In this document: positions 2,855 through 10,754 of the stretch, piece by piece | Layout: the number at the start of each line of letters is the position of its first letter | Position numbering within the stretch: position 1 is the first letter of the stretch | Assembly: GCA_030616165.1 (NCBI GenBank) | Contig: JAUWXV010000124.1 | Location: forward strand, 1 to 10,754 | DNA: 10,754 nucleotides | Reading direction: 5' to 3' | Origin: a bacterium | GTDB taxonomy: Bacteria > SM23-31 > JAUVVT01 | The notes under the pieces: generated by a model | Told to the model about the DNA's origin: nothing | Seen by the model: the letters and a program-made list of their open reading frames with translations, nothing else | The model's database searches: none | Program-made: the position numbers and the translations under genes

Positions 2855-3607
2855 ATGTTAAAGGTTTTAATAGCCGATAGGGATCCCCATTCACGGGAAT
2901 TTCTTCTGGCTTTATGTAAGGGCAAAGGATATGAAGTCGAGGTAGCGGGAAATTCTGGAGATGCTTTGAGAAAAATACAGGATGAAGGAATAGATGTAAT
3001 ATTCTTGGATTGTGACCTACCGGGGATGAATATAGTCGACCTTGTATCCGTGATAAACGAGTTAAAGAGGGATTTGCCTGTCATAATAACTGCAGAGCAG
3101 CCAAATAACACAATAGAGATTCAGGTGCGGTCAAAAAAAATATTTTACTTTGCTGACAAGCCTCTCGAGTCTAATGAAATCGAAAAGGTGATGAATGCTG
3201 TGGTTGATAAAATTGCATCAAAAGAATTAGTAAAAAAATATAAAGTGATTGAGGATAAAGTTAAAGTAGTGGGTGAAGAGCGAGTTGAAAGAGTTGAAAA
3301 GCGGGCTAAAAAAGATGAAATGATTAAGTTGAAAGAAGAATATGATACCCATAAAAAACAGGTACCTGAGAAACTGAAATCATATAAGAATCAGTTATTC
3401 GAAACGATATCGGAAACAGGCTCAGCAGCTGCGAGAAAAATTCAGGATGCAGATAGGACAATATCAAAGGCAGTTGGAAACGTACCTGTGCCGAAGTTAG
3501 AATTCTTTCGAAGAACTTTAACCAGACCGATATCATTCATTGACAATTCTATGAATAAATTAAGCAAACAGATTACGAATATTTTTATCATGAAGAAAAA
3601 AAAATGA
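2855..3607 (+). CDS. Receiver-domain protein with long charged C-terminal tail
   Basis: A 250-residue protein with a CheY-like receiver in residues 1-120 that keeps the phosphorylation site: D8, D52 (IFLDCDLPG), T79 and K102. The output is not a recognisable DNA-binding or enzymatic domain. Residues 121-170 are dense in Lys and Glu and look like a long helix or coiled coil. Residues 171-250 are basic, with a VPVPKLEFFRR stretch and a final run of lysines. No membrane segment is visible. A strong GGAGG (2843-2847) sits 7 bases before the ATG. mamI follows 33 bases after its stop, so it is probably the first gene of the magnetosome transcription unit. It may act through protein contacts, for instance with a cytoskeleton or scaffold, controlled by phosphorylation; that is inference. 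The kinase at 194 is a candidate phosphodonor. Confidence 0.85.
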   Translation: MLKVLIADRDPHSREFLLALCKGKGYEVEVAGNSGDALRKIQDEGIDVIFLDCDLPGMNIVDLVSVINELKRDLPVIITAEQPNNTIEIQVRSKKIFYFADKPLESNEIEKVMNAVVDKIASKELVKKYKVIEDKVKVVGEERVERVEKRAKKDEMIKLKEEYDTHKKQVPEKLKSYKNQLFETISETGSAAARKIQDADRTISKAVGNVPVPKLEFFRRTLTRPISFIDNSMNKLSKQITNIFIMKKKK

Positions 3608-3881: not shown

Positions 3882-4445
3882 ATGAAATCAAAAAGGTCTT
3901 CAAAAAAGTGCATCAATCCCTGGTTCAGGTTTTTAGTGATTTTTATTATTGCTTCTTTGACAATATTTGCAATGTTTGCGATAAAGTCAAAGCATATGAA
4001 ATTCGAGTATACAATTATGTCTGAAGATGATAAGAATTATAATGAAAATGTTCTTATCACCTCAACAGGTAACAGACTTAAATTTCCGGTTGCCGTGCAG
4101 TTTGAGACCTGTAAGTATTATATAGTTGTGAATCCATCAACCGGCAAATATTCGAGTTTATCAAACGATTCGAAGTTTTATAATAAAAGTCAAATTGAAA
4201 ACTTAATCAGAGATAATAATGTGGGAATAGTTATTACCGGGACAATGAATCTTGATACTTATCAGGTGCTCGAGTCATCATATGTGGACATGTATACCGG
4301 ATTAAGTGGAACAGGGAAAGAAGCCTTAAAGATGTACCGTGAGAATAAACTTGTAAAATTCACCGATTCGAAGGGTAGAACAGAAAAGATGAGTGTATCT
4401 AATAAATCAAAGAAAGTTGATTCAACAAAGAGGATAGTTTTTTAG
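3882..4445 (+). CDS. Membrane-anchored, divergent NifX/NifY-like domain protein
   Basis: A 187-residue protein with a basic N-terminus, one membrane helix (about residues 15-35) and a globular part (about 57-160). That part follows the pattern of the dinitrogenase iron-molybdenum cofactor fold: a first strand ending before F74-E-x-C77, then YYIVVNPSTGKYSSLSN, a helix, VGIVITG (114-120), and a terminal helix (GTGKEALKMY). It lines up along its length with residues 50-157 of the protein at 6895, for example TGKY in both and VGIVITG against EAVITNN. The tail (161-187) is basic and low-complexity. NifX-type domains bind iron-sulfur or FeMo-cofactor precursors; here the glycine-rich first loop is poorly kept, so ligand binding may have changed. 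No clear Shine-Dalgarno is seen. It follows mamI by 61 bases, suggesting a magnetosome role. The fold assignment is by eye. Confidence 0.72.
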   Translation: MKSKRSSKKCINPWFRFLVIFIIASLTIFAMFAIKSKHMKFEYTIMSEDDKNYNENVLITSTGNRLKFPVAVQFETCKYYIVVNPSTGKYSSLSNDSKFYNKSQIENLIRDNNVGIVITGTMNLDTYQVLESSYVDMYTGLSGTGKEALKMYRENKLVKFTDSKGRTEKMSVSNKSKKVDSTKRIVF

Positions 4446-4682: not shown

Positions 4683-6032
4683 ATGTTAAATATATTCAAA
4701 AACAATAATAAATTCTGTGATTCATCAATTAAACCATGGGTCTTCTTTCTAATAATTTCTGCTGTGCTGGTTATAGGATGGGGAATTTATAAGAGAGAGA
4801 GTGTTGAACCTGAGAATTTAACGGAAAATTTGAGTGAGCAGTTTAACCAGAATCCAGCAGTATTGACAAATAATCCAACTCCTCAATCGGCAGATAAGAC
4901 AATCTATACTGCAATTACCAAAGCAACACCACAGGGCTCCAGCACATTGATAACGAACATCGATAGATTCAACATGCAGGAGTCGTATAAACGTATAATT
5001 GCCTCTGTGCGACCAACAGTTGTTAATATTAAAGCCACAAAGGTCATCACGAACGATAATTTGTCTCCACCTTCAATTAATATGAATATAAGGTTTGTCG
5101 ATCCATTTGGAGTAGATGCTCCGGCGAATACCAAAAGTATATATGAAAGTGTGGGGTCAGGAATAATTGTCAGTCCTCAAGGACATATTTTAACTAATTA
5201 TCATGTTATAGCCAATTCAAATAAGATACTTGTTACGGTTTTTGGTATGGGGAAGCAAAATTATCCAGCCAGAATTATTGACCATCATGCCGATACAGAT
5301 TTAACACTATTAAAAATTGAGGCGGCAGATGATTTTAAACCAGCCCAACTCGGTAACTCTGACCTTGTTGAGGTGGGTGATTGGGTTTTAGCATTTGGAA
5401 GCCCCTTTGGGTTAGAACAGACTGTTACCTCAGGTATTGTCAGTGGGAAAAGGAAGACACTCGTTATTGAGGGTATAAAATATGAAAATATGATACAAAC
5501 CGATGCGCCGATTAACCGTGGGAGCAGTGGTGGACCATTGGTCAATTTGAACGGTGAGGTAATAGGCATAAATACGGCGATTTATGCGCCAACTGGTGTG
5601 TTCAGCGGGACTGGCTTTGCAATGCCGATAAACCAGGTCAAAAGATTTCTTTCTGCCCATAATATCATCTCTGCTGGAGATTTAATTCAAGTGAACAATC
5701 CTTCAATCCAATATGGTCAGGGATGGCTGGGAATTGAGATTCAGCCTGTTGACAGGACTATTGCTCATCAGTTTGGACTGCCGTATATCGGGGGGGTATT
5801 AGTTAACAGGGTAGTATATAATTCACCAGCATGGAATGAAGGATTAGAACGCGGTGACGTCATTCTTGAATTTGATGGAAGAAAAATTTCAAGTATGAAA
5901 AGGTTAGAAAATTTAATTGCGGACCTGAGTCCGACCGAAAAGGTTAAATTGCTTGTTTTCAGAGATAAAAAATTAAAAGAATTTTTTGCAACTTTATCTG
6001 AAATGCCAGAAAACATTGAGTTTGTAAAATAA
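4683..6032 (+). CDS. mamE: MamE-type HtrA serine protease with one PDZ domain
   Basis: A 449-residue trypsin-like protease anchored by one N-terminal helix (about residues 17-36), so the catalytic part faces the periplasm or magnetosome lumen. After a low-complexity linker (40-95) comes the protease domain (about 100-325) with an intact triad: H174 (LTNYHV), D206 (TDLTLLK) and S282 (GSSGGP, where most relatives have GNSGGP). One PDZ domain follows (about 345-440, starting GWLGIEIQPV, with NEGLERGDVILEFDG). MamE in Magnetospirillum has two magnetochromes and two PDZ domains; here there is no C-x2-C-H, and those modules are encoded separately downstream. It therefore looks like an N-terminal-half MamE, a form reported from other magnetotactic groups. 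A housekeeping DegP-type protease cannot be excluded from the protein alone; context argues against it. No strong Shine-Dalgarno is seen. Confidence 0.8.
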   Translation: MLNIFKNNNKFCDSSIKPWVFFLIISAVLVIGWGIYKRESVEPENLTENLSEQFNQNPAVLTNNPTPQSADKTIYTAITKATPQGSSTLITNIDRFNMQESYKRIIASVRPTVVNIKATKVITNDNLSPPSINMNIRFVDPFGVDAPANTKSIYESVGSGIIVSPQGHILTNYHVIANSNKILVTVFGMGKQNYPARIIDHHADTDLTLLKIEAADDFKPAQLGNSDLVEVGDWVLAFGSPFGLEQTVTSGIVSGKRKTLVIEGIKYENMIQTDAPINRGSSGGPLVNLNGEVIGINTAIYAPTGVFSGTGFAMPINQVKRFLSAHNIISAGDLIQVNNPSIQYGQGWLGIEIQPVDRTIAHQFGLPYIGGVLVNRVVYNSPAWNEGLERGDVILEFDGRKISSMKRLENLIADLSPTEKVKLLVFRDKKLKEFFATLSEMPENIEFVK

Positions 6033-6138: not shown

Positions 6139-6867
6139 ATGAATAAACGTGTTCCTGCTTCAAAAGGCACGGCACAATATTTAATTTTTGCGGCTTTTGC
6201 TTTAGTTTTAGTCCTTATTTTATCAGCGATGATTGCAGGAAGTTCCGAAAATAAATATTCTGCTGAATGGAATGCTTCAGGGAAGGTACAAAATGGTGTA
6301 TTTGTAGAGAGGGATTGGTTCAGTGTTGATGTTAAAGATATAGATAATGAACTTGCTCGCAAATATAATTTGCCGCTGGAGATTAAAGGTATCGTAGTTA
6401 CAGAGGTCGAAGGAAACAGAGATTTAAAAACCAGGTTAAGAAAGGGTGACCTGATTAGAGGGATTAATAGAATAAAGACTGATGATATCAGGGATTTCCG
6501 CAGTGCATCACGAAAGATTAATCCAAATAATGGACTCCTTCTTGATATTGTTAGGGATGGTTATCCTACGTATGTTACAATCCCCGGAATAGATGAAACT
6601 ATAGGAAATAACAATCAAACTGTAAAATGGCAGAACCCGGACCCATTTCAAATGGCAGAAATTGCCCCCATTTTAGGAAAAAATCTCGGGACAGGTATGG
6701 CTTTTGAAGGTGGTGGAATCGGAAAGGAGATTGAAAACTGGATTAATAGTAATACAGGTGGTTATTATGTTTGTTTGAGATGCGGAACTATGGTACCATA
6801 TAATGAAAACCTGAAGTATAAAAATATATATTGCCCAAATTGTTCGAATATAATGTTCTTAAAGTAA
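6139..6867 (+). CDS. Membrane-anchored PDZ protein with C-terminal zinc ribbon
   Basis: A 242-residue protein with one membrane helix (about residues 13-33) and a PDZ domain (about 55-150; ELARKYNLPLEIKGIVVTEV, then RKGDLIRGINRIKTDD). A linker follows, then a terminal rubredoxin-like ribbon with C212-x2-C215 and C232-x2-C235. The PDZ is of the MamE/MamP type, with the YNLP turn also seen at 8537. The end, GGYYVCLRCGTMVP onward, is clearly related to the first ribbon of the next protein (GGYYTCPNCYTRMP). No magnetochrome is present. The four cysteines would bind zinc, iron or possibly a cluster. AGAGGAG (6122-6128) gives a good ribosome site. It lies between the protease and the NifX-magnetochrome gene, with only 27 bases to the latter, so the pair is probably co-translated. 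I know of no established gene name for this arrangement. Confidence 0.85.
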   Translation: MNKRVPASKGTAQYLIFAAFALVLVLILSAMIAGSSENKYSAEWNASGKVQNGVFVERDWFSVDVKDIDNELARKYNLPLEIKGIVVTEVEGNRDLKTRLRKGDLIRGINRIKTDDIRDFRSASRKINPNNGLLLDIVRDGYPTYVTIPGIDETIGNNNQTVKWQNPDPFQMAEIAPILGKNLGTGMAFEGGGIGKEIENWINSNTGGYYVCLRCGTMVPYNENLKYKNIYCPNCSNIMFLK

Positions 6868-6894
6868 AATTGTTTTTTATAAAGGAGAATTATA

Positions 6895-7938
6895 ATGGGA
6901 AATGGATTTAAAGGAGTTTACGACAAAGACATATTACCTGTAATAACGACATTTATAATTATTCTCATTGCTGTGATTGGATTATATGCTATGCTATACG
7001 GCTCAAGATATGGAGATAACTTTGATGTTGGTAATTTCCGCTGTGGAAAGATTGCAATAGCCGCTGATGGGAGAGGTATCAACTCAAATGTTTCAGAGCA
7101 GTTTGCCAGGGCAAAGCATTTTCTTATTGTTGAACCTTTTACAGGAAAATATAAATCTATACAGAATCCATATAGAAATCTCGATAGTGAGGCGGGGATT
7201 CGCGCGGCACAGCTAATTTCTGGTGAAACAGAGGAGGCTGTTATTACAAATAATATTGGACCAAATGCATATGGACTGTTAAATGGATTAGGAATAAAAG
7301 TTTATACTGTAAAATCCGGCACCGTAAAAGATGCAGTAAAAAAGTTTAAAGAAGTCAGGTTAACTGAAACTGCAAATGCAACGGTACCGCAATTTTACGG
7401 GAAGAATACTGTTCTTGCTAATGGAGGTTATTATACATGCCCGAACTGTTATACAAGGATGCCCTGTCCGCAAAACTATAATGGGGGATTACCCTGTCCA
7501 AGCTGTGGGGTGATAATGAATCAAGTGCTGGGTGGATTAGGTGGATTGTTTCCATCTACAAGCATTGCAGGGACAAATTTAAGTGTTGCAGGTGGTTTCG
7601 GATTGGGACTCGGACCTGTAGGAAATCTTATATGTCCAAACTGTGGGATGGTTATACCACATCAGAGGGGTGTGCCCTCCTATACGGTTCACTGCCCTGA
7701 ATGTGGAACCACAATGGTAAGACAATTTCCTGCAAACATACAAACGGCATTTAACACAGCGAACAATAATCAAACTAATGCTGCACCTCCCATTACAATT
7801 GATGCCGTGATGAAACATGCATACAGAGGTGTATGCAGTAAATGCCATACCATTGTCGATAGAGCGGCAGATGTTAATACCGGTAATATTATAGGAACAG
7901 CATACAGGATTGGACCCGGCGGATGTATTTTAAGATAA
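6895..7938 (+). CDS. NifX-like / zinc-ribbon / magnetochrome fusion protein
   Basis: A 347-residue mosaic. An N-terminal membrane helix (about residues 14-35) is followed by a well-kept dinitrogenase iron-molybdenum cofactor-type domain (50-157: KIAIAADGRGINSNVSEQF, then IGPNAYGLLNGLGIKVYT). Ribbon 1 has C182-x2-C185 and C201-x2-C204, and ribbon 2 has C247-x2-C250 and C267-x2-C270, separated by a Gly/Leu-rich stretch (211-243). One magnetochrome ends the protein (about 298-320): ITIDAVMKHAYRGVC then SKCH, with haem cysteines C314 and C317 and axial H318. Family knowledge: NifX-like domains carry iron-sulfur or molybdenum-iron cluster precursors, and magnetochromes bind c-type haem in magnetosome proteins. 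Inference: it handles or senses iron clusters and electrons at the magnetosome membrane. It has a strong ribosome site (AAAGGAGAA, 6881-6889). I cannot name a described homologue with this architecture. Confidence 0.88.
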   Translation: MGNGFKGVYDKDILPVITTFIIILIAVIGLYAMLYGSRYGDNFDVGNFRCGKIAIAADGRGINSNVSEQFARAKHFLIVEPFTGKYKSIQNPYRNLDSEAGIRAAQLISGETEEAVITNNIGPNAYGLLNGLGIKVYTVKSGTVKDAVKKFKEVRLTETANATVPQFYGKNTVLANGGYYTCPNCYTRMPCPQNYNGGLPCPSCGVIMNQVLGGLGGLFPSTSIAGTNLSVAGGFGLGLGPVGNLICPNCGMVIPHQRGVPSYTVHCPECGTTMVRQFPANIQTAFNTANNNQTNAAPPITIDAVMKHAYRGVCSKCHTIVDRAADVNTGNIIGTAYRIGPGGCILR

Positions 7939-8062: not shown

Positions 8063-8257
8063 ATGTTTGAAGGCTCAATTATATTATGGATAGCATTTGC
8101 TCTTATAACTGCTTTTATAGCGGCGAAAAAGAACAGGTCTTTTCTTGGTTGGCTGATTATTGGATTGGTTGTGCCCATCATAGGATTTATTCTGATACTC
8201 GTATTGCCAAGGGGTGAGGTGGAAAAAACTAAGAGAGCTAAGGAAGCAACTGCGTAG
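8063..8257 (+). CDS. Small two-helix membrane protein, unknown function
   Basis: A 64-residue protein with two hydrophobic helices (about residues 4-21 and 28-48) around a basic turn (AAKKNRSFLGW), and a charged tail (RGEVEKTKRAKEATA). A very good Shine-Dalgarno (GGAGG, 8051-8055, with 7 bases before the ATG) and regular codon use support it as a real gene. The pattern of K-K-N-R-S, G-W, then G-x-x-x-P-x-x-G-F-I resembles common small bacterial membrane proteins with no set function. It does not match MamI, MamL or MamF closely. It lies between the NifX-magnetochrome gene and the structured intergenic region, 124 bases after the former, so it may be a lineage-specific magnetosome membrane protein. 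That role is inferred from position only. Confidence 0.7.
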   Translation: MFEGSIILWIAFALITAFIAAKKNRSFLGWLIIGLVVPIIGFILILVLPRGEVEKTKRAKEATA

Positions 8258-8536: not shown

Positions 8537-10087
8537 ATGTCAGAAAAAAATATATATCGTAAAATATCCGTTGTAACAATTGTAATTCTGGGCATCATAA
8601 TTTTTGCTTCATTAGTTGGTATCGGGATTGGTGAGGCTTATTGGTATGGATTATCTGTGGATCCGCTGAACCAAAAATACAGAGAACATTATAATCTATC
8701 TCCGTATGATACCGGAGTCGTTGTTGTTGGAGTTAAAGGAAAAGCAGAAAAAGCAGGCATTAAAGAGGGTGATTTAATTATCGGAATAAATGGAACGAGG
8801 GTTTATGATATAAAATCATTTCTATCTTCGGCTAAAGCTGCAAAAAACAGTAGTAATATTGTACTGGATTTAAAAAAGGGTGGGAGGCAGATGAGTTTTT
8901 CACTACCAGGGGAAAAATATGATAAAGGAAGGATTGCTGATGCTTCGCAGGTGAATTTAGGATTATTCACAGGAAGTCCTTTATACCTTACTGCCGGTAA
9001 TAATACGGTGGGTGGAGCGGTTCAAATTCCAAGAATTCCGACCGAGGGAAATTGGTTAGGAATGGAACTTGAGGGGATTACGTCGGGAACAATCAGGGAA
9101 TTGAATCTACCTGCCAGCCAGACAGGTGTATTTGTTGACGATGTGCCACCTAATAGTCTCGCGGAAAAAGGCGGATTGAAAAATGGAGATATTATCAGGT
9201 CTATCAATGGGCAGTTAATTATTAATATGGCAGATTATATTAAGGCAACAAATAATCAGCAAATAAAAACAGCAAATCTCGAGGTTGTGCGGAATGGTAA
9301 ACTTATTCTTTTGACAATTCCTGCGGCAGAAGTCGGTGTTCCGCAATTTTCGGGGATTCAGCCAAAAACAAATTTAGTTCCATCTATAACAATCGATGCA
9401 GTTATGCCTCATGCATATCGGGGGGTGTGCGTTAATTGTCATAAAATAATCGGGAGTTCGGTATTGAATAATATGCCGGTTAATTCTCCACTAAGAACAA
9501 TTATTCCGGATAACACGGGCCTTCCGAGTCCTGCTCAGCAGAAAGCGGCACAGAAAGTCTTGGTTGAGGGGCATTGGCTCGGAATGGAACTGATTCCTTT
9601 AACATCCGAACTTGTAGTAGAATACAAATTACCCAAAGGTGTGGCAGGTTTGCTTGTGGATGAAGTTACATTAGAGTCAGCCGAATCAGGACTTCTTGCC
9701 GGGGATGTTTTACAGAGCATTAATGGCTATCCTGTCAAAACACTTGATGATTTTGCAAAAGTTACGAGAAAGATTGAATCTCTCAGGGAAGTTCGTCTTG
9801 GGGTTTTACGGAATGGGAATCCATTATTTCTTTCACTTCAATCAAGTTGGGGGAAACTTGGAGTATCACAGAATGAAGCCGCTCAACCTATACAGCCGGG
9901 CGCTATTAGTCCGCATAGAGATAGGGGACGTCCTTGCACTGACTGTCATATAATAATGAAGAATGGGGGGCAGTTGCCCACGGATGCGGGAGATATTTTA
10001 CCGAATCCCCCGCCGATTAGAGGTAGTGTAAATCCTCCACATTCTTATAGAGGGAAATGTAATACTTGTCATACAATTCTTAGATAA
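8537..10087 (+). CDS. mamP: Three-PDZ, three-magnetochrome MamP/MamE-C-terminal-like protein
   Basis: A 516-residue protein with one N-terminal membrane helix (about residues 11-32). In order it carries PDZ1 (about 35-125), PDZ2 (170-265, [10 protein letters not shown]), magnetochrome 1 (283-305; PHAYRGVC, C298/C301/H302), PDZ3 (343-440, [10 protein letters not shown]), magnetochrome 2 (C467/C470/H471) and magnetochrome 3 (C508/C511/H512, four residues from the end). Magnetochromes bind c-type haem; MamP uses them to oxidise iron during magnetite growth. MamP normally has one PDZ and two magnetochromes, and the MamE C-terminus two of each, so this is an enlarged version and could equally be called MamE-Cter. 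PDZ2 and PDZ3 are similar enough to suggest internal duplication. No protease residues are present. The start lacks a Shine-Dalgarno. mamL follows 25 bases later. Confidence 0.85.
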
Positions 10088-10112: not shown

Positions 10113-10364
10113 ATGTTTAAATTAATTATCACCGTAATAATAACAGTATTAGTTGTAATATTTGCAGCACAAAACTTCTACAGTGTTCCAATCAGGTTTT
10201 TTACAAGTGAACCTCTTCAGATACGCCTGATATTTCTGATATTTACATCGATATTAATAGGTGCAATGATTCCTACATTTTATAGTATGATAAGAAGGAT
10301 AAACAAGATTAGAACTGAAAAGGAAATCCAGAGTAGCGAAGAAATTTTTGAAGTCGAGGATTAA
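10113..10364 (+). CDS. mamL: MamL-like (LapA/DUF1049-type) membrane protein
   Basis: An 83-residue protein with two membrane helices (about residues 3-20 and 39-60). The [11 protein letters not shown] turn after helix one and the basic stretch after helix two ([10 protein letters not shown]) are the layout of LapA-type proteins. MamL, an essential small protein of magnetosome vesicle formation, belongs to this fold (about 77-80 residues, ending in a positively charged tail). Here the basic stretch is followed by an acidic end ([10 protein letters not shown]), unlike the purely basic tail I recall for Magnetospirillum MamL. It lies between the three-PDZ gene and mamB, where mamL is commonly found near mamB/mamM. 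A plain LapA homologue would look alike, so the name rests mainly on context. A weak GGGATGG site precedes the ATG. Confidence 0.7.
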
Positions 10365-10380
10365 ATTAATATTACCAGAT

Positions 10381-10754
10381 ATGAAATGCAGTAATTGTAA
10401 TACATGCAATGCTCGTGTCGGGTGGATAGGGCTTGTGGTAGGCATTTTAATCGGTGCGTTTACTATATTAATGGGATTACTGAGTCACAGTAAAGCATTG
10501 ATCGCAGTATCTTTATGTTTGGGAATAGACGTTGCTACAGCAATGACTGTAATTTTTGGTCTTAAAATATCGAAAAAACCGATTGATTTAAAACATCCTT
10601 ACGGGCACGGGAAAATTGAATCTGTTGCGGTCGGAGGAATAAGTTTATTATTGATATTAAGTGCAGTTTTACTTTTTTTAATTTCTGTAAAAAGTATATA
10701 TCAAGGTGAAGAAGGACCTAAACAAATTCTTACACTCATTGCTGCTTTAGTTGC
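10381..10754 (+). CDS. mamB: MamB-like cation diffusion facilitator, 3' end outside window
   Basis: The reading frame is open to the last base (124 codons seen of about 290-300 expected). It starts MKCSNCNTCNARVGWIGL, with C3, C6 and C9; a Cys-rich head is typical of MamB. Membrane helices lie at about residues 13-33, 40-60 and 85-104, and the loop KISKKPIDLKHPYGHGKIE is the cation diffusion facilitator signature (K-P-x-D, HP-x-G-HG-K-x-E). MamB and MamM form the complex that carries ferrous iron into the magnetosome and starts vesicle formation. At the first transport site, where helix two of such carriers has H/D/Y-x3-D, this protein has C46 and D50. It starts 16 bases after the mamL stop. 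MamM is the alternative; the Cys head favours MamB. Confidence 0.82.
   Translation, partial: MKCSNCNTCNARVGWIGLVVGILIGAFTILMGLLSHSKALIAVSLCLGIDVATAMTVIFGLKISKKPIDLKHPYGHGKIESVAVGGISLLLILSAVLLFLISVKSIYQGEEGPKQILTLIAALV

Follow-up and report, generated by a model that had tools for sequence, protein, structure and literature searches.

The combination of a NifX domain and a magnetochrome on one magnetosome protein has already been published, in FmpB/MamP* (PMC4287615, PMC3971196), with the order MCR1-MCR2-PDZ-NitroFeMoCo in MamP* of RS-1 and BW-1 (PMC3971196). In RS-1, FmpA and FmpB are enriched on early-stage magnetosomes (PMC12748827), and mutants predicted to lose the NifX domain make few, small and misplaced crystals (PMC12748827, PMC4287615). 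MamP, MamT and MamX share a CXXCH magnetochrome, a membrane anchor and a place in magnetosome clusters, yet their magnetochromes (MCRs) are in tandem, with PDZ or alone, and none of them has NifX or ribbons. Among other proteins carrying the NifX-type fold, IssA of Pyrococcus furiosus has a domain that binds Fe and S and a Gly/aromatic tail, and builds iron-sulfur nanoparticles (PMC5524996), whereas ORP binds Mo-Cu clusters and the corresponding domain of MrpORP a [3Fe-4S] cluster (PMC6345978). In the nitrogenase chaperones, the ligand of FeMo-co/NifB-co is the histidine of an HFG motif, H121 in NafY (PMC8496260) and H35 in NifX (PMC13128457).

We find a different arrangement of these domains in a bacterial contig, analysed over its whole stretch of 10,754 nucleotides (hereafter the window). 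A single intact frame on the forward strand (6895-7938), with an ATG start and a Shine-Dalgarno GGAG 7 nt upstream (6884-6887), encodes a protein of 347 amino acids in which ORF, Pfam and motif analyses identify a membrane helix (TM), a NifX domain, two Cys4 ribbons and a magnetochrome, and which has 12 orthologues in Omnitrophota. With FmpB (DMR_41100, Desulfovibrio magneticus RS-1) it shares an anchored or exported N-terminus, the joining of magnetochrome to NifX and a position beside mamB, and with FmpB-type relatives a NifX domain that is basic and lacks the His ligand. However, FmpB is built as MCR-MCR-PDZ-NifX, with a PDZ domain, tandem MCRs and no Cys4 ribbons, whereas the window protein reads TM-NifX-ribbon-ribbon-MCR, with a single MCR and no PDZ. 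Orthology to FmpB by architecture was consequently rejected, given the differing domain order and the missing PDZ, and the two are better regarded as functional cousins; identity with MamP (23.8 bits against a model cutoff of 300) or MamT (17 bits against 200) was rejected as well. The initial annotation had treated the architecture as possibly undescribed, which holds only in part: the pairing of NifX with magnetochrome is that of FmpB/MamP*, while searches of openly accessible papers brought up no protein with the TM-NifX-ribbon-MCR order, whether from Omnitrophota or elsewhere. It is this order that seems not to have been described, together with a wider shuffling that yields NifX-ribbon, ribbon-MCR, PDZ-NifX and CDF-NifX proteins in magnetosome clusters.

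The membrane anchor and NifX-like domain proposed from the sequence were both borne out. Hydropathy predicts one strong membrane helix in the protein, at residues 13-35 (6931-6999), where AlphaFold also places a helix (pLDDT ~63-75), and the flanking charge is nearly neutral on both sides. The NifX/Nitro_FeMo-Co domain spans residues 52-159 (7048-7371), with a PF02579 match at residues 63-152 (hmmscan against Pfam, E 1.8e-18, 67.1 bits, cutoff 26.3). The full-length AlphaFold model, built from a 5-sequence alignment, is of low confidence (pLDDT 37), but the NifX domain modelled alone has a mean pLDDT of 62.5, and its strands and helices follow one another as expected. This isolated-domain model gives the NifX fold that had been predicted for residues 50-157: its top match is ORP (2wfb, E 3.7e-7, Z 11.8), with TA1041, TM1816, NafY (1p90, Z 10.5) and NifX (9ian, Z 9.7) among the further matches and unrelated structures well below (Z ~6.8). 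In sequence, the best PDB matches are MTH1175 (1eo1, E 5.4e-18), TM1290 (1rdu) and ORP (2wfb), and no NifX or NafY chain matches the window protein at E<=1. Judged by these PDB sequence matches, the domain is nearest to the MTH1175/IssA/ORP-type domains and not to NifX/NafY, and the IssA/MTH1175/ORP group of IPR003731 is the closest by fold as well (1eo1, 2wfb), although its members are cytosolic and possess neither haem nor anchor.

The residues expected of a cofactor carrier are missing. At the position of the His-Phe-Gly cofactor-binding motif (ligand role: PMC8496260, PMC13128457) the window protein has Q69-F70-A71 (7099-7107), and the 12 orthologues have unrelated residues of a T-L-x-x type, so that the histidine is absent from all 13 aligned copies; by eye, FmpB-type NifX domains likewise have no His there, showing QFG (L103, L104, L105) or NFE (L101). 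The MrpORP motifs CXHFGHCE and CDH are also absent from the aligned window domain. In the magnetosome NifX domain the motifs FGR and GGAGIQ have decayed as well, most strongly in Omnitrophota. The sole cysteine in or at the domain is Cys50 (7042-7044), directly before the first NifX strand and invariant in 13 of 13 sequences, and besides it the alignment of these 13 reveals no conserved metal ligand set. Because both the HFG histidine and the MrpORP cluster motif are missing, the domain should not be named a nitrogenase cofactor carrier; it shares the fold of the NifX/NafY chaperones without their cofactor-binding residue, and the original proposal of a carrier from nitrogenase assembly is rejected on this ground and on its closer sequence relationship to MTH1175, TM1290 and ORP. 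The domain is strongly basic throughout (pI 8.8-9.9 in all 13 copies; four FmpB-type domains give 8.6-9.8, and 16 ordinary NifX domains average ~6.0), which fits what would be expected for holding anionic iron species.

The remainder of the protein is a flexible, Q/N/G-rich tail of low complexity bearing the ribbons and the haem motif. Two zinc ribbons had been claimed, and the two Cys4 motifs are clear, CPNC-X15-CPSC at residues 182-204 (7438-7506) and CPNC-X16-CPEC at 247-270 (7633-7704), yet all matches of the protein to Pfam ribbon models fall below their cutoffs. The magnetochrome, at residues 298-322 (7786-7860) with the haem motif CSKCH, matches PF18509 with E 1.1e-6 and 28.6 bits in hmmscan, just below the cutoff of 30.4; in the genome search the same protein scores 33.5 bits, above the cutoff. 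Most of the Omnitrophota orthologues also exceed the cutoff, and the window magnetochrome matches MamP (4jj0) with E 0.0023. This single MCR contrasts with the usual tandem. Across 386 diverse genomes the profile matched only in the window's genome, and it was present in one of the six genomes searched in the window's phylum, an absence from the others that argues against a chance motif; matches were otherwise obtained from 13 of 384 genomes of Omnitrophota, the phylum of the L039 organism, and from 6 among 395 genomes belonging to a dsrA-bearing phylum. In these searches magnetochrome is specific to magnetosome genomes, and its identification in the window is upheld by the profile match, the CXXCH and the gene context.

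The 12 orthologues, obtained from one genome-contig scan and from magnetochrome profile searches of genomes, all combine a TM, NifX and one or two C-terminal MCRs; a scan of viral contigs added no sequence to the NifX alignment. Ribbons, two or three each, occur in 10 of them, while in the other two (L039 and L042) a Q/N/Y-rich tail takes their place, indicating that ribbons are not essential to the family. Mean identity of the window copy to the orthologues is ~38-42%, compared with at least 59% among the orthologues themselves (at least 63% over the NifX domain), which marks it as an outlying member from another phylum. All 12 Omnitrophota loci have the gene order of the window, namely MamE-like protease, PDZ protein, orthologue, MamP. 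Upstream of the MamE-like gene, four of four Omnitrophota clusters inspected by eye carry an ApbE-like (FMN transferase) gene (L039:5925-6875, L040:4451-5467, L041:5683-6657, L042:2046-3026).

The magnetosome setting originally proposed for the protein is likewise supported by its neighbours, all those given strand here being on the forward strand. Just upstream of the cluster lie a histidine kinase and an NtrC-type regulator (194-2587), as well as a receiver protein (2855-3607) whose C-terminus forms a long basic tail; a tail at L092:6677-7006 resembles that of the receiver. There follow a second NifX protein, also membrane-anchored but having neither ribbon nor haem (3882-4445, + strand; PF02579 E 2.5e-7), a MamE-like HtrA protease with trypsin and PDZ domains and no MCR (4683-6032, + strand; ~41% identity to the Omnitrophota copies) and a TM-PDZ-ribbon protein (6139-6867, + strand; weak PDZ matches, MamP profile 2.5e-10, CxxC pairs). 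Downstream, all on the + strand, are a predicted membrane protein of 64 amino acids known from its ORF only (8063-8257), a MamP-type protein with 3 PDZ and 3 MCR (8537-10087; MamP model 1.6e-83, PF18509 2e-19), a LapA-domain membrane protein (10113-10364) with an equivalent place in L039, and the start of a MamB/MamM-type CDF transporter (10348-10752; PF01545 4e-18), which continues on contig C135 (L092) of the same MAG. Inspection of the sequences by eye, guided by the gene order in Omnitrophota, assigned to C135 the end of MamB, MamM, MamA, MamQ, MamN, TauE, FeoB and a DtxR-type regulator. The window end (10640-10754) and L092:1-533, which meet within the MamB-type gene, are near-matching and not identical, and L092 shows what looks like a frameshift near base 220; assembly or strain variation is the likely cause. 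The magnetosome cluster on the two contigs (C181, which is the window, and C135) occurs in a phylum whose five other searched genomes are without magnetochrome.

Related domain combinations recur in magnetosome clusters elsewhere. Six Omnitrophota genomes encode TM-NifX-single-ribbon proteins of ~236 amino acids in such clusters (L124:863-1573; also L126, L127, L128, L130 and L125), and TM-ribbon-double-MCR proteins of ~190-278 amino acids are found close to these genes; both look like uncharacterised magnetosome families. FmpB-type MCR2-3-PDZ-NifX proteins were recovered in another phylum, with a PDZ3-NifX (FmpA-like) gene adjoining one of them, and the window itself encodes the TM-NifX and TM-PDZ-ribbon proteins mentioned above. 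On an Omnitrophota magnetosome contig (G759:C110), a protein of 384 amino acids joins a CDF transporter, an extra membrane helix and NifX (L125:8230-9381, - strand), a fusion in which NifX would face the lumen from a MamB/M-type transporter. A member of the family of the window's organism that has no magnetochrome (G001:C57) carries in a row a NifX gene, a CDF-NifX fusion and a signal-peptide NifX gene (L085:276-2346, - strand); the fusion, of 424 amino acids with a dimerisation domain, is thus flanked by two NifX genes, and the row suggests NifX domains on both membrane sides around one transporter. The CDF-NifX fusion offers the best hint that the NifX domain handles transported metal.

The ribbons may have a traceable origin. 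Ribbon 2 has homologues among small free-standing ribbon proteins whose genes neighbour NifX genes in other anaerobes (57% identity, E 4e-13 for the match in G032). In L007 and L008, the latter locus being from the window organism's own class, such proteins are 51-61% identical to ribbon 2, and their genes are immediately flanked by NifX on one side and MinD/ferredoxin ATPase on the other. In the genome search 7 of ~15 ribbon matches were within 4 kb of a NifX match, always on the same strand. This homology and gene order lead us to infer that the window protein arose by fusion of adjacent genes of a cytosolic ORP-like operon, with an anchor and haem added. In a tree whose ordinary NifX set was picked by similarity to the window, a branch (89/89) separates all magnetosome NifX domains, whichever of the two architectures they belong to, from ordinary NifX; window and Omnitrophota domains are joined at 97/95, and the second NifX protein of the window, which is acidic (pI 5.0), forms a long branch grouping weakly with FmpB-type NifX. 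This topology is compatible with a single recruitment of magnetosome NifX domains, though it does not prove it. We tentatively raise the possibility that an iron-handling, IssA-type NifX domain entered the magnetosome lumen in a single early event, coming from cytosolic operons for iron-sulfur assembly (NifX-ribbon-MinD/ferredoxin ATPase; NifX-CDF transporters), and that it serves there as a scaffold for mineral precursors and has since been reshuffled with ribbons, PDZ, magnetochrome and CDF in deep-branching magnetotactic bacteria.

As regards function, we lean towards a magnetosome membrane protein that faces the lumen and acts early in biomineralisation, its NifX domain binding iron or a precursor and its ribbons and haem dealing with metal and electrons. 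Attachment of c-type haem takes place outside the cytoplasm, where magnetochrome proteins work, and for this reason we assign the tail to the lumen of the magnetosome or of its precursor; the lumenal side, iron binding and electron transfer are all inferred. The basic NifX-type domain would bind iron, or a precursor of the mineral, as it arrives through the neighbouring MamB/MamM transporters, and the two Cys4 ribbons (zinc or iron) and single magnetochrome haem on the flexible tail would hold metal and move electrons, setting, beside MamP, the ratio of Fe(II) to Fe(III). Such a scaffold is supported by the place kept between the MamE-like/PDZ pair and MamP in 12/12 Omnitrophota loci, by the NifX fold, the magnetosome-specific magnetochrome, the basic charge and the common side of the tree, and by the FmpB-type proteins, the CDF fusions and the nanoparticle-building IssA. 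Counting against it are the absence of a conserved metal ligand set other than Cys50, the two orthologues that have no ribbons and, for the topology, the nearly neutral charge around the helix of the window copy. The early stage of action is borrowed by analogy from the RS-1 data on FmpB cited above, that is, the early enrichment of FmpA/FmpB and the crystal-poor mutants. The comparison with IssA has its bounds, as IssA handles sulfide-bound iron and the window cluster may make oxide. For comparison with the cationic Gly/aromatic thioferrate-binding tail of IssA, the tail here is Q/N/G-rich, with pI 7.7-8.9 and 5-10% aromatic residues.

These readings presuppose that the gene is real. The window is one short contig in a MAG of 343, and none of the five further genomes of the phylum that were searched has MCR, as might be expected if a misbinned or chimeric contig had joined unrelated genes. 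However, the architecture recurs at twelve independent orthologous loci, which refutes an artefact for the gene itself, the tetranucleotide profile of the window correlates far better with its own MAG (r 0.87) than with Omnitrophota (r 0.50), and the rest of the cluster is present on C135 of the same MAG. An assembly join, named initially as what could undo the observation, is accordingly rejected, and we consider an artefact of this kind very improbable.

Two further explanations concern the NifX domain itself. It may no longer bind metal, serving instead as a dimerisation or structural module that places MCR and PDZ partners (MamP, the MamE-like protease), with the chemistry left to haem only. 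The eroded ligand, FGR and GGAGIQ motifs would then be explained, as would the low-complexity tails and the PDZ proteins next door; against this, the domain is well conserved within Omnitrophota (at least 63%), keeps its basic charge and Cys50, is fused elsewhere to CDF transporters, and costs crystals when mutations affect it in RS-1, and we regard a purely structural role as unlikely. Alternatively, as first proposed, the domain might carry a true Fe-S or heterometal cluster, electrons passing between cluster, ribbons and haem, as the clusters of ORP and MrpORP (PMC6345978), the rank of ORP among the fold matches and the descent of ribbon 2 from an ORP-type neighbourhood could suggest. Yet neither the HFG histidine nor the MrpORP motifs are there, one cysteine is all that the domain offers, and some route for inserting clusters outside the cytoplasm would be required, such that we hold this to be quite unlikely.

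To our knowledge, deep-branching magnetotactic bacteria lack many Magnetospirillum factors. For the question of how crystals start in these organisms, the NifX family points to a testable nucleation or iron-handling step: it binds iron-sulfur polymers or clusters elsewhere, recurs on lumen-facing magnetosome proteins and is found fused to an iron-type transporter. FmpB of RS-1 provides a genetic system in which the role of the NifX domain may be tested.
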